Assembly: GCF_012272855.1 (NCBI RefSeq)
Contig: NZ_JAAXCQ010000006.1
Span: forward strand, 186,001 to 250,000
Direction: 5' to 3'
Length of the DNA stretch: 64,000 bases
Source of the DNA: Arenibacter sp. 6A1
GTDB lineage: Bacteria > Bacteroidota > Bacteroidia > Flavobacteriales > Flavobacteriaceae
The notes beneath the pieces are model-generated. The model did no database searches, was not told the DNA's origin, and saw only the letters and a list, made by a program, of their open reading frames with translations. Both the position numbers and the translations under genes were made by a program. Positions 55,379 to 60,250 of this stretch are shown here, piece by piece. Within the stretch, counting starts at the first letter, position 1, and each line of letters opens with the position of its first letter.

Positions 55379-58300
55379 TTATGCTAAAGCTTTGTCTTTT
55401 ACGATTAAAAATTTGATAAAAATTTCTTTTAAGGTCTCGAATACTACAGGTTTGGATACATATTCATCCATACCGTATTTTAGGCATCTCTCGCGTTCAC
55501 CTTTTACCGTTCTAGCCGTTAAGGCTATAATAGGAATGCGACTTTCATTGTTCTCTAGTATTCTTATTTCTTGTGATGCCTCAAAACCACTTAGAATAGG
55601 CATTTGAATATCCATTAATATTAAATCTACCTCCTTATTCTTAAAGGCTTCTACCGCTTCTTCTCCATTGTCTACTTCTATCAGTTCTACATTGGGAAGT
55701 AGTTTTTTGATAATGGTACGAGTCAAATATTTATTTATCTTATTGTCCTCCGCGACCATAATCTTAAAGTTATAGACAGAAAGATCTATTTCTTGTATCA
55801 TTTTAGGGGCGGGATTTTTTGATATTGCTGGATTTTGAATTTGATCAATAAGTTTATATAGCGCATTCATTTGAATGGGCTTTACTTCATTAAATTGCAC
55901 CTGGTATTCATGGCATTTTTGTTGTACCTCATTGTCGTCGCCAGAACTGTGTAATAGGATGATTGGAAGCTGTTGTTCTGATATTTTAAGTACGGTTCTT
56001 ATATGTTTAATTAGATCAAGACCATTTAGATAAGGCATGTGGTAATCGATGATGGCCAAATCAAAGCTCTCTCCTTTTTGTAAAGTGTTAATGGCATCAA
56101 TTCCATTTGCCAATAGGGTAGTACTTATTTGTTCTACGGCGAGCATTTCTTTTAATATAGTACGGTTGTTAAGATTGTCATCTACCACCAATACATTTTT
56201 TACATTGCGGGTGAGGGCCTGATTAGGGTTTTGATCCATTTCAGTTTTAAAGGAAACATTAAAATAAAACACACTGCCTTCATCCAGGGTACTGTTTACT
56301 TGAAGCTTACTGCCCATGATTTCTAACAAGCGATTACTGATGGTTAGGCCTAGTCCAGAGCCACCATATTTACGGGTGGTTGATGCGTCTTCCTGATCAA
56401 AGGCATAGAAAATTTTGTCCATATTTTCAGGCGCAATACCAATTCCGGTATCTCGTATAGAAAAGGTATAAGGTATTTCACCTGCGCTTAGATCCGATGA
56501 ATTAGCCTCTACTTTAAGTTCTATTTCGCCATGGTGTGTAAATTTTACCGCATTTCCTAAAAGGTTAATAATAATTTGCTTCAGGCGTACGGTATCGGCA
56601 TAAATGGAACGCTTTATTTGTGGGGAAATATTCAACAGTACTTCTAAACCCTTGTCATGGGCCTGTTGTTTGATAAGGTCAATAGCCTGGCCGCAGACCT
56701 CTACCAAATCGGTTTTCTCTATGTTCATCTCTAATTTACCAGCCTCAATTTTGGAGAAATCCAAAATGTCATTTATTAAATCGAGTAGCGATATGGCCGA
56801 GCTGTAAACAGTTTTCATATAGTTTTTTTGGCTATCTGAAAGTTCTGTTTTCATCAAAAGGTCTGTAAAGCCAATGACGCCATTTAGCGGTGTTCTGATC
56901 TCATGGCTCATATTTGCCAAGAAATCTGACTTCGATTTACTGGCCATTTCAGCCTTTTCCTTAGCTGTGATCAGAGATTTTTCCATCGCTTTTAATTCAG
57001 AGATGTCTGTCCCAACCCCCAAATAACCAGTGGTAGTACCGTCCTGATCTTTTACGGGAGTGATCACTAGCTGTACAGGGAACCTACTGCCGTCCTTTTT
57101 TATATAACTCCATTCCTTGGGTTCAAAATTTCCCTGGTCGGCATCAAAACTGAAAGCATCTTCCTCGGCTATAGTGGTACCATATTTTTCCGAAAGTACT
57201 TGTGCATGATCAGTTATTTCATGCTTAACATGAAATAAGCCTGGACTGGTTTTTCCAACGACTTCATGGGCGGTATACCCTAGTAGGTTTTCTGCGCCTT
57301 TATTAAATTTTCTTACCGTATGGTTAAGATCTGTCTCTATAATAGATATCTGAGTCGTAGCATTTAGCAAGCCTCGTAAATCATTTAAACTGCGCTGTAG
57401 TGCCTTCCGGCCTAAAATGGTCTCGGTCATATCTACGACCTGACCGATAAGGGAAGTTACTTTTCCGTGTTCATCATAAATACCGGCAACATGAAATTGA
57501 CAATGGACAATACCTCCATTTTTATGAATATATCTTTTTTCAATGCTATAGTTTTCGATCGCTCCATTAACAAGTTGTTCTATTAAATGGCTGTCATTTT
57601 TATAGTCATCAGGGTGTATGATGTCCCTAAACCTAAGCCCGCGAAACTCCTCCTTAGAATAGCCTATAATTTCAGCTAGCTTGTTGTTGAACATCACCCA
57701 GTGGCGATCGAGGCCTATGACACCCATCCCGTTGGGAGAATTGTCAAACGCCTTGATAAACTTGTCAGCGTTTTCTTTGGCCACACGCTCTAATTCCTTT
57801 TGCTCTGTAATTTCTTCAATCTGGGTGATAATAAGGTCTTCATGATTGTCAGATCCTGGTAGTAGGGAAGAATTAATGTTGCACCAAACGATCTGACCAT
57901 TAGAATGGATACATTTTACTTCTAGTTTATAGCTTGGAAGTTCTCCCGCGATTAATTTTTTACGAAAATCAACGGCAGTGGCAAGGTGATCGGGATGAAT
58001 GACATCTTTAAAAGTTAGCTGCAAAACTTCTTCCATGGGAAGATTTTCGAAACCAAAAATCCGTAAACTGGCCGGGTTAATATCAATTACATTATTCTCT
58101 TTGTCAGCCAAGAGGATCCCGATAGGCGAACTGTCAAAGATTTTTTCGAAACGGCTCCTAGTTTCCTTTAATTCAATTTCTCGTTTCTTTTTTTCGTCTA
58201 TATCCTGAAAAGCACCATAGGCACGGATACACTTTCCCAATTTAAACACGGGTTTTCCAATGGCTCGGACCCAAATATCCCTGCCTTTTGCAGTAATTAT

Positions 58301-58984
58301 TTTGCATTCAACATCATAAGTGGAGCCATTAGAAATGCAATCATTAAACGAGGAGGTAATTAAATCCCTGCTCCAACCTTCTTTAAAAAAGTGTATCGAT
58401 TCTTCAAATTTAGGTTGGTAGTCAGAGGCAACCTCATGAATAGCTTTGGTTTCCTTGGTCCAGTTTATTTTGTTGTTTAATAAATCTATTTCCCATCCCC
58501 CAATGTGGGCAATTTCATTGGTTTGCTCATATACGCCCGTAAGCGTATTTAAATCATCGAGTTGTTCATCAAACCAGATTTTAGATTTTTTAAAGCGTAC
58601 TAAATAATATACATTTTGCTGTGCATCGGTAAGAGAAAAGGCTTCTAACTCATAATTGAACGGCTTGCCCAAAGCATCCGATACCAAAAGTTGTGCCGGT
58701 CGGTTTTTAAAAGTATCCTTACCAAGAGATGTTAGAAATAGTTGGAGGTCTTCAATCGTTTTTGGGCCTAGTTTCTCATTTAAAAAATGACTGTTATAAT
58801 CAGCTTCTATGAGGTCAAACTGTAGACTCTTCCAAAACGATTGGCTGACCCAGAAACTATCGGTGTTTCCTTTTTCAAAAAACCATAATCCATCAATTGG
58901 TTTTTCGGTAATCCAATTAAAAATAGCTGGGTTAACTTGAAGTAGCTTTTGTAATTTATTTTTTAAAAAGGAAGAAGTTATCAT
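55379..58984 (-). CDS. Cytosolic hybrid histidine kinase with five PAS domains
   Basis: A 1201-residue hybrid sensor kinase without membrane helices. PAS-like domains lie at ~20-130 (divergent), ~150-265, ~280-400, ~405-520 and ~535-665. Phosphoacceptor His694 is in NMSHEIRTPLNGVIGF. The HATPase domain follows (~795-915: DTVRLKQIIINLLGNAVKFT, GIGIAPENMDKIF, TRKYGGSGLGL). Two receiver domains carry Asp980 (IIDYHMP) and Asp1125 (ILMDIQMP). It heads an operon of pseudoreceiver-HPt, response regulator and glycan synthesis genes, so it should sense an internal signal and feed a phosphorelay. Confidence 0.93.
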   Translation of the reverse strand: MITSSFLKNKLQKLLQVNPAIFNWITEKPIDGLWFFEKGNTDSFWVSQSFWKSLQFDLIEADYNSHFLNEKLGPKTIEDLQLFLTSLGKDTFKNRPAQLLVSDALGKPFNYELEAFSLTDAQQNVYYLVRFKKSKIWFDEQLDDLNTLTGVYEQTNEIAHIGGWEIDLLNNKINWTKETKAIHEVASDYQPKFEESIHFFKEGWSRDLITSSFNDCISNGSTYDVECKIITAKGRDIWVRAIGKPVFKLGKCIRAYGAFQDIDEKKKREIELKETRSRFEKIFDSSPIGILLADKENNVIDINPASLRIFGFENLPMEEVLQLTFKDVIHPDHLATAVDFRKKLIAGELPSYKLEVKCIHSNGQIVWCNINSSLLPGSDNHEDLIITQIEEITEQKELERVAKENADKFIKAFDNSPNGMGVIGLDRHWVMFNNKLAEIIGYSKEEFRGLRFRDIIHPDDYKNDSHLIEQLVNGAIENYSIEKRYIHKNGGIVHCQFHVAGIYDEHGKVTSLIGQVVDMTETILGRKALQRSLNDLRGLLNATTQISIIETDLNHTVRKFNKGAENLLGYTAHEVVGKTSPGLFHVKHEITDHAQVLSEKYGTTIAEEDAFSFDADQGNFEPKEWSYIKKDGSRFPVQLVITPVKDQDGTTTGYLGVGTDISELKAMEKSLITAKEKAEMASKSKSDFLANMSHEIRTPLNGVIGFTDLLMKTELSDSQKNYMKTVYSSAISLLDLINDILDFSKIEAGKLEMNIEKTDLVEVCGQAIDLIKQQAHDKGLEVLLNISPQIKRSIYADTVRLKQIIINLLGNAVKFTHHGEIELKVEANSSDLSAGEIPYTFSIRDTGIGIAPENMDKIFYAFDQEDASTTRKYGGSGLGLTISNRLLEIMGSKLQVNSTLDEGSVFYFNVSFKTEMDQNPNQALTRNVKNVLVVDDNLNNRTILKEMLAVEQISTTLLANGIDAINTLQKGESFDLAIIDYHMPYLNGLDLIKHIRTVLKISEQQLPIILLHSSGDDNEVQQKCHEYQVQFNEVKPIQMNALYKLIDQIQNPAISKNPAPKMIQEIDLSVYNFKIMVAEDNKINKYLTRTIIKKLLPNVELIEVDNGEEAVEAFKNKEVDLILMDIQMPILSGFEASQEIRILENNESRIPIIALTARTVKGERERCLKYGMDEYVSKPVVFETLKEIFIKFLIVKDKALA

Positions 58985-59342: not shown

Positions 59343-59882
59343 TTAATTGCATTGTGCACAGTTTTCTTCTCCTACAAGTTTACCTTCCTTATTAATTTCA
59401 AATTTACAACACTCGTTAAAATTCTTTTTTAGAATCGATTTTGCACGTCTAATTCTTGCTTTTACATTCGGTAAACTGATTTTTAGAAATTCAGCGACCT
59501 CAATTTGTTTCTTTCCTTTTATAAAAACCATATCAATAACTTCCTTATATTCTAAAGGTAAATTGGCTATGAATTTATCAAAACAACAAAATTTTTGATA
59601 GTATTCAGCGTCTTTTAAGAGGTCGTGATTTAGACCGGTTCTTGTATTTGACGAGTCCCTAAAATGATTTGCGATCTCATTTCTAACAATTTGATAAGTC
59701 CAAGCTTTTACCTTTTCCGGGTTTTTTAACTGTTCAATGTTTTGGTGGATTTTTAGAAAGGAATTTTGAAGAATTTCATCAACGGAATCCTTGTTTTTCA
59801 CCTTTTTTAGAATAAAAAAATAAAGCTGGCTATTGTAGGTATTCCATATGGTGATAGTGTCAATTTTCATTTGTAGAAACAT
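59343..59882 (-). CDS. sigZ: SigZ-type ECF sigma factor with cysteine pairs
   Basis: A 179-residue ECF sigma factor; an alternative ATG at 59870 would remove four residues. Region 2 spans ~6-76 (NSQLYFFILKKVKNKDSVDE, AWTYQIVRNEIANHF) and region 4 spans ~100-155 (LPLEYKEVIDMVFIKGKKQI, LPNVKARIRRAKSILKK). Cysteines are concentrated outside these: Cys99-Cys100 in the linker, Cys158-Cys159, and Cys175/Cys178 in a CAQC end. C-terminal cysteines are usual in SigZ and recall the metal-sensing cysteine-rich tails of CorE-type sigma factors. No anti-sigma gene is adjacent. A metallothionein-like gene lies upstream on the same strand. Confidence 0.88.
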   Translation of the reverse strand: MFLQMKIDTITIWNTYNSQLYFFILKKVKNKDSVDEILQNSFLKIHQNIEQLKNPEKVKAWTYQIVRNEIANHFRDSSNTRTGLNHDLLKDAEYYQKFCCFDKFIANLPLEYKEVIDMVFIKGKKQIEVAEFLKISLPNVKARIRRAKSILKKNFNECCKFEINKEGKLVGEENCAQCN

Positions 59883-59997
59883 ATTGTTTTTTATCGGTCA
59901 TACTTCGGCTGGGCTGAGTACAGGTATGTAATTCTTGTATCTTAATTCATTTTTGCGAACAGTTAGCTGCCTGGCTCATTTCATATGATAAAATTTA

Positions 59998-60026
59998 AGG
60001 TTGGCCGAAAGACCAACCTCTTTTTT
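59998..60026 (-). terminator. Hairpin after the metallothionein-like gene
   Basis: AGGTTGG pairs with CCAACCT around an eight-base loop, with T-rich sequence on both flanks. It lies between the small cysteine-rich gene and sigZ. Confidence 0.65.
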
Positions 60027-60138
60027 AACAACATTCGCATTTGCTACATTCACATTTTGTGCACTTGCAATTATTATCCTTACAATTTACACAATTACAT
60101 TTTGTGCATTCACAGTTTGTACATATACAGGTATTCAT
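60025..60138 (-). CDS. Metallothionein-like 37-residue cysteine-rich protein
   Basis: Too short for usual gene callers. The frame from ATG at 60138 to TAA encodes 37 residues of which 14 are cysteine (positions 4, 6, 9, 11, 14, 16, 19, 24, 26, 29, 31, 34, 36, 37). They form two sets of seven in a C-x-C-x2-C-x-C rhythm, separated by KDNN at 20-23. All other residues are small, polar or charged (Thr, Asn, Glu, Lys). There are no histidines and only two aliphatic residues after Met. Such composition is diagnostic of metal-thiolate clusters. It is unlike the SmtA/GatA type of cyanobacterial metallothionein. It is followed by a terminator and then sigZ. Confidence 0.8.
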   Translation of the reverse strand: MNTCICTNCECTKCNCVNCKDNNCKCTKCECSKCECC

Positions 60139-60250
60139 GGTTTAAGATTTTTAAGTTCACTAAGGAGACTAGATGTTACCCAAAAAGATACAAAATAATT
60201 GAGTTTTTTTAAAATGTAAGGATCTAACTCTCTTAGGATCATCTGAAGGT

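Follow-up and report, generated by a model that had tools for sequence, protein, structure and literature searches.

Bacterial metallothioneins, such as SmtA, BmtA, PmtA and MymT, are very small, cysteine-dense proteins, and the small protein described here is equally tiny and cysteine-dense. However, its gene is tied to a sigma factor, not to a repressor such as AzuR, which the accessible part of the source places in the SmtB/ArsR family (PMC8790569). Among the ECF sigma factors, CorE and CorE2 of Myxococcus xanthus (the former ECF44) are described, in the available portions of two reports (PMC8999054, PMC3107203), as factors in which the cysteines of the linker and of the C-terminal extension carry the metal response. 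The available portion of the former report also names the groups ECF287 and ECF288, for which CorE-like regulation is suspected owing to their cysteines. OrbS of Burkholderia cenocepacia, an ECF factor with C-terminal cysteines that serves siderophore genes, is inhibited by Fe(II), according to the accessible part of PMC9023288.

The operon analyzed here comes from a stretch of 64,000 nucleotides of Arenibacter sp. DNA, to which, as a whole, we refer as the window. Its SigZ-like factor resembles CorE and CorE2, to the extent that these are covered by the accessible text, in being an ECF factor without a linked anti-sigma factor gene and in carrying cysteines in both the linker and the C-terminal extension; the absence of a linked anti-sigma factor, which characterizes the CorE-like groups (ECF44/ECF238), was observed in a comparison of 23 loci that took in ORFs of at least 80 aa. 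The differences pertain to motifs and targets. Among the 63 aligned factors of what we denote the MT clade (the 74 sigma-profile places scoring at least 155 bits), the linker CXC of CorE is found in none, with CC in 33, and the C-terminal C-x2-C-x-C is found in a single one; judged by motif, the SigZ-like factor is not a CorE member. Moreover, CorE controls several copper genes, as far as the available descriptions go, whereas here there is one promoter-like site, located before a metallothionein-like gene in the factor's own operon. An earlier note on this DNA had proposed a compact metal-stress pair with a self-sensing sigma factor, by analogy to CorE; the conserved unit, the lack of an anti-sigma-like neighbor and the near-invariant cysteines speak for that proposal, whereas CorE membership is not supported by motif.

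With OrbS, the factor would share an on-board C-terminal cysteine metal sensor, which is proposed here, although the cysteine spacing of OrbS in the accessible part of the source, C-x2-C-x3-C-x5-C, is unlike that of the MT clade. As for the SigZ family itself (TIGR02959/NF007215), a CC and tail cysteines are common to its members and relatives, and a sister of the promoter-like motif lies near part of them, whereas the window clade is distinguished by coupling to a 14- or 11-cysteine protein.

This is a real, conserved operon of which no description was found in the searchable papers. The accessible parts of PMC9723704 and PMC10141476 do not mention it, and neither the operon nor a link between SigZ and arsenic was found among the matches listed, subscription papers being mostly outside the scope. 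No paper combining metallothionein, SigZ and sigma factor was found in the searchable literature, and the co-mentions of extracytoplasmic function with metallothionein and of SigZ with arsen among the matches listed were judged incidental from the text available.

A cysteine-rich small gene next to a SigZ-like gene

The locus contains the following features, in which cysteine numbering takes position 59870 as the start of the sigma factor:

60164..60192 (-): ECF-type promoter-like element, TGTATCTTTTT-N12-GTCTCC; ATC-to-GTCT distance, 17 nt
60025..60138 (-): metallothionein-like small gene, 37 aa, 14 Cys, indicated by ORF, conservation and codon bias
59997..60020 (-): hairpin (terminator or attenuator), a terminator-like stem just 3' of the small gene
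59343..59882 (-): SigZ-like ECF sigma factor, 179 aa; start at 59882, or at 59870 by alignment with relatives
59583..59588 (-): linker Cys pair C95-C96; C96 present in 62 and C95 in 34 of the 63 rows
59406..59411 (-): Cys pair C154-C155 following region 4; both residues present in all 63 rows
59349..59360 (-): tail C171-x2-C174; C171 in 63 of 63 rows, C174 in 62 of 63

The earlier note had described a 37-codon frame whose 14 cysteines fall into two groups of seven, an adjacent ECF sigma gene with six cysteines and a terminator between the two, and all three are borne out, at 60138..60025 (-), at 59882..59343 (-), with cysteine pairs in the linker, after region 4 and in the tail, and, as a terminator-like stem, at 60020..59997 (-). 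In the translated small protein, 14 of the 37 residues are cysteines (7+7), there is no histidine in the window copy, and the 11 invariant columns of an alignment of 15 rows are every one a cysteine. When 14 related copies are compared to the window copy, the summed substitutions at codon positions 1, 2 and 3 amount to 44, 80 and 220, respectively, and cysteine codons show TGT/TGC exchange. The sigma ortholog is present in 15 of the 18 Arenibacter genomes, the window's own included (search of 60 relatives), and the conservation of the frame in relatives, on which the original proposal depended, is complete at these 15 loci, each of which contains a 37-aa, 14-Cys ORF directly upstream of the sigma gene, so the small ORF is not a chance occurrence. 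A chance or spurious ORF is ruled out by this conservation combined with the codon-position bias, and these patterns of substitution support the view that the small ORF behaves like a true coding gene.

Very small size and cysteine density are features that the protein has in common with metallothioneins; it matches no described metallothionein family in Pfam, NCBIfam or the PDB sequences, given that none of 15 family members was matched in the Pfam and NCBIfam scan and that the PDB sequence search returned no match. Being absent from both curated family libraries, the small protein may be unannotated in many genomes.

The sigma factor possesses sigma70 regions 2 and 4 (PF04542 and PF08281, above cut-off) and only these, as is typical of ECF factors. 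The top-ranked NCBIfam sigma models are NF007215 (143.1 bits, cut-off 212) and TIGR02959 (128.9 bits, cut-off 168.65); the equivalog cut-offs of both SigZ models are missed, and the protein is, on these scores, SigZ-like only, SigZ being the nearest named family among the NCBIfam sigma models. The six cysteines form three pairs: FCCFD in the linker, CC behind region 4 and C-x2-C in the tail. A linker cysteine of some kind is present in all 63 aligned MT-clade factors, among which the spacing CC-x15-C-x2-C occurs in 33 rows and CC-x19-C-x2-C in 29. A CC with a later cysteine is also found in 36 of 43 SigZ-like rows without the metallothionein-like (MT) gene, so the cysteines are not specific to the MT operon, as would be expected if sensing predates the link to MT.

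In the AF2 model of the sigma factor (pLDDT 81.8, pTM 0.42), sigma2 and sigma4 are confidently predicted, the pTM value leaves the mutual arrangement of the two domains unresolved, and the best fold matches are ECF factors. The model confirms the ECF fold but does not confirm a metal site; in terms of the prediction, a joint metal site is neither supported nor excluded.

In one genome (G002), a SigZ-like paralog that lacks the cysteine tail is present four times (L027-L030); the copies score identically or almost so and are located near contig ends, which suggests a repeated, possibly mobile element.

Conservation of the gene pair

Across 397 Flavobacteriaceae genomes, the small-protein profile matched 40, in 38 of which the sigma factor adjoins the small gene; it is absent beside it in two (L136, L140). 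The sigma profile, at E 1e-30, matched 113 places in 105 of the 397 genomes. A search for the same frame next to sigZ, as had been suggested at the outset, shows that, at 73 of the 74 MT-clade places, the small ORF, in its 14- or 11-Cys form, lies upstream of the sigma gene, L172 being the exception; the 73 include one locus (L247) in which both genes are broken. The 11-Cys forms were seen in two genera other than Arenibacter (L023, L024). Among the 39 lower-scoring SigZ-like places, 24 were inspected, and none has the upstream ORF, although L251 has a cysteine-rich ORF downstream. Outside the family, the pair is also present in a Saprospiraceae MAG and in a Pontibacter. Taken as a comparison of gene content, these observations support the SigZ-like gene and the small ORF as one conserved unit in many flavobacteria.

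In a quickly built tree of 101 rows with moderate branch support, the 43 sampled MT-linked factors and L172 formed one group (support 84), and the five factors with a downstream cysteine-rich ORF formed another (support 84); the outgroup of this tree is not clean because three "control" rows, L353, L357 and L373, come from Pseudomonadota and match TIGR02959. Provided that these branches, with their moderate support, are correct, SigZ and a cysteine-rich ORF became associated at least twice.

At L247 (G228), the small gene and sigZ are both broken and the promoter-like element is still there, as if the unit had decayed as a whole.

When the ORFs of at least 80 aa from 23 neighborhoods were clustered, the sigma gene was the only one common to all, the next clusters being confined to at most four loci. 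This comparison led us to reject a larger conserved gene cluster, and it supports the conclusion that, among ORFs of this size, there is no conserved neighbor that could be an anti-sigma factor. In the window, a 1201-aa protein (55379-58984), which by eye resembles a multi-PAS hybrid histidine kinase, is encoded on the same strand about 360 nt beyond sigZ; it is not common to the loci of the relatives.

Terminator-like stems were found at two sites compared to 0.5 +/- 0.8 in shuffles, the two being one stem scored on both strands. A stable hairpin of varied sequence follows the small gene within 75 nt at 100 of 106 loci, stability being defined as z < -2 relative to mononucleotide shuffles, which preserve single bases only. 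The distance from the stop of the small gene to the start of the sigma match is at most 100 nt at 55 of 65 family loci and 157 nt in the window. A separate sigZ promoter would hardly fit into the short gap beside the hairpin, and we read this arrangement as one transcript in which a partial terminator would favor the small protein.

In the window (59870-60024) and in the nearest relative (G009), the gap is about 110 nt longer than in other members of the genus; by eye, the extra stretch may represent a decayed sigZ start.

A promoter-like element with fixed spacing

Alignment of 17 loci yielded the consensus TGYATCYTTTT-N12-GTCT upstream of the small gene, with a constant 17-nt ATC-to-GTCT spacing. 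Among the distinct MT loci, 98 of 106 contain the element so spaced; seven of the remaining eight contain variants recognizable by eye, the one in L246 lying farther upstream, and the eighth is L136. The GGGTAAC string that the earlier note had weakly entertained as a -35 element sits within the spacer of this conserved element and is not itself conserved, so the assignment is replaced by TGTATCTTTTT-N12-GTCTCC at 60192..60164 (-). Sigma-70-type promoters were rejected as well (two found compared to 4.5 expected), and Rfam gave no match to a known RNA element at the gathering threshold.

The strict pattern was sought in 20 genomes, 17 of which possess the operon; in 15 of the 20, it has a single match, which lies at the operon, and the reversed strict pattern matches nowhere in the 20. 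The genome of the window contains a single exact match, which is the operon element. A looser pattern was found at 31 places in 25 of 30 genomes, 25 of these at the operon and six elsewhere, compared to four for the control, and a search allowing one mismatch in 10 genomes yielded 14 further sites, 13 of them within ORFs of at least 100 aa. Further SigZ targets in the MT clade were rejected on these two grounds, that is, the six places against four for controls in 30 genomes and the intragenic location of 13 of the 14 one-mismatch sites. With one strict site per genome, at the operon, in 15 of the 20 genomes, the operon itself appears to be the sole target of SigZ, and from co-occurrence and position we infer that SigZ recognizes the element.

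A one-mismatch site at position 1501 of L377, seen only in the genome G016, lies inside a long ORF, 30 nt before the ATG that is possibly the true start of the gene, which encodes a putative exported protein; this could be a second SigZ target in G016.

The exceptional loci, which act as natural controls for the tie between SigZ and the element and count in its favor, were inspected by eye. L172, where SigZ occurs without MT, has no such element. L136, where MT occurs without SigZ, has only the TATCTTT half, the GTCT half being absent, and L140, also without SigZ, is alike. The TATCTTT stretch at these two loci may be a relic or, alternatively, a -7 box of the housekeeping type, and its retention means that MT without SigZ is not a clean natural control.

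A related motif near further SigZ-like genes

A sister motif, TGC(G/A)TC(C/T)TTTT-N12-CGTC, with a spacing of 16 or 17 nt, was found before other sigZ genes, after them, or both. The counts below cover the 450 nt upstream and the 150 nt downstream, were obtained with a pattern looser than the written consensus, and are set against mononucleotide shuffles, which keep single bases only:

MT type: 57 of 66 loci; shuffles, 0 of 3300
Other flavobacterial SigZ-like: 13 of 24; shuffles, 2 of 1200
Other Bacteroidota (including the MT-type L282 and L284 as well as L292, a gene that also appears, as L254, among the 24 above): 5 of 10; shuffles, 0 of 500
Bacillota: 16 of 23; shuffles, 0 of 1150
Pseudomonadota: 6 of 30; shuffles, 4 of 1500
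Control ECF loci: 0 of 53; shuffles, 4 of 2650

By the pattern used, the motif is missing at 24 of the 30 Pseudomonadota loci, 7 of the 23 Bacillota loci and 11 of the 24 other flavobacterial loci. In a genome-wide search of 23 genomes, 14 sites were detected in 11 genomes compared to two in controls, and 11 of the 14 lie beside a SigZ-like gene. A shorter form of the motif gave 12 sites in eight more distant genomes compared to seven in controls and so is, on its own, of little use in such genomes.

We examined 27 proteins encoded behind sister motifs, a hand-picked subset of those available. Four of these are ArsM above cut-off, with one truncated ArsM below it; three are ArsI/CadI and four ArsP_1; six are DUF2703 above cut-off, with one more just below; and four belong to other families (MatE, PIG-L, an FAD/NAD(P)-linked oxidoreductase at L068 and an AhpD-core protein at L342). 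The four unmatched proteins include three that are cysteine-rich. A small cysteine-rich ORF is found downstream of SigZ at L251, L287, L288, L290 and L291, each time behind its own copy of the motif, which at L288 is a variant seen by eye. A profile search for ArsM and ArsI matched 8 of 53 SigZ loci, one of which (L351) had, under the handle L075, contributed its ArsM to the profile, compared to none of 53 control loci that were twice as long. Arsenic is the leading candidate rather than a result, given that the best matches of the ArsP_1 proteins are to Cu/Zn-efflux and SaoE models, below cut-off, that CadI is a cadmium name, and that DUF2703 has no assigned function.

Among the Bacillota (L322-L338), DUF2703 proteins, many with a cysteine-rich N-terminus, repeatedly occur behind sigZ and the sister motif. 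On a Hymenobacter plasmid (L294), a SigZ-like gene, immediately preceded by what by eye is a similar element, is located about 2 kb from arsC and the gene for an ACR3 arsenite transporter.

Proposed mechanism and alternatives

The conserved unit, the coding small ORF, the lack of an anti-sigma-like neighbor and the near-invariant cysteines make a compact, self-sensing metal-stress operon the best reading of the locus, and we consider it moderately probable that the two genes comprise a self-contained, autoregulated, single-target operon responding to metal(loid) stress. Under this scenario, a little SigZ would be made by read-through past the hairpin. On entering the cell, a thiophilic metal(loid), perhaps of the As(III) type in the first place, with Cd, Cu or Zn as the next candidates, would bind the conserved linker and C-terminal cysteines of SigZ, which would thereby become active, rather than inhibited, with no anti-sigma factor involved. 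SigZ with RNA polymerase would then fire one promoter, TGYATCYTTTT-N12-GTCT, before the small gene, inducing the presumably co-transcribed pair; because of the leading position of the small gene and the hairpin behind it, the small protein would be made in excess over SigZ. The cysteine-rich protein would bind the metal(loid) and withdraw it from SigZ, and this withdrawal would close a negative feedback loop atop the positive autoregulation.

The chemistry of the cysteines is compatible with a different stimulus. SigZ might sense disulfide or electrophile stress, with the 14-Cys protein acting as a thiol buffer, not a metal store; the conserved sigma factor cysteines and the all-cysteine conservation of the small protein fit redox chemistry equally, and the oxidoreductase at L068 and the AhpD-core protein at L342, both behind the sister motif, are in line with such a role. 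However, the ArsM, ArsI/CadI and ArsP_1 genes beside the relatives of SigZ indicate metal(loid)s, and we regard a thiol-redox operon as rather unlikely.

Distinctly improbable, in our estimation, is that SigZ itself is the target of the small protein, which would then be a metal-dependent anti-sigma or co-activator peptide instead of a bulk metal store. The near-obligate 1:1 linkage, the apparently single target and the apparent second, separate gain of a cysteine-rich ORF beside SigZ are all features that one would anticipate of such a peptide. Nevertheless, an MT-clade SigZ exists without MT (L172) and MTs exist without SigZ (L136, L140), many SigZ-like loci have no small cysteine-rich ORF at the thresholds used, and the two kinds of cysteine-rich protein share no pattern discernible by eye. 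Inhibition by metal, such that the operon would be expressed when metal is scarce and the small protein would be a store or chaperone, has a precedent in OrbS, an ECF factor with C-terminal cysteines that is inhibited by Fe(II) according to the accessible part of PMC9023288, but seems very improbable because the genes behind the sister motif of the relatives are often of a detoxification type that needs to be switched on by the toxicant.

Extending the self-sensing metal(loid)-stress reading to the relatives, we put forward a more tentative generalization, to which we assign somewhat less than even chances. Conceivably, SigZ-like factors in three phyla carry their own thiol sensor for metalloids of the As(III) type, recognize TGCRTCYTTTT-N12-CGTC as their one conserved promoter and mainly activate neighboring genes, namely, ArsM, ArsI/CadI, ArsP_1, DUF2703 or a cysteine-rich mini-protein that was gained at least twice in Bacteroidota. 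The flavobacterial operon would then be the minimal form of such a system, with one sigma factor, one promoter and one metal sink that feeds back on the sensor.

Implications

To our knowledge, SigZ is an ECF factor without a known signal. The element described here, the apparently single target and the arsenic- and metal-related neighbors of the relatives provide a candidate signal and a testable read-out for it, and DUF2703 gains a genomic context. If the proposed mechanism is correct, the two small genes of the operon would contain the sensor, the transcription factor and the buffer of a minimal metal circuit, with neither an anti-sigma factor nor a repressor.
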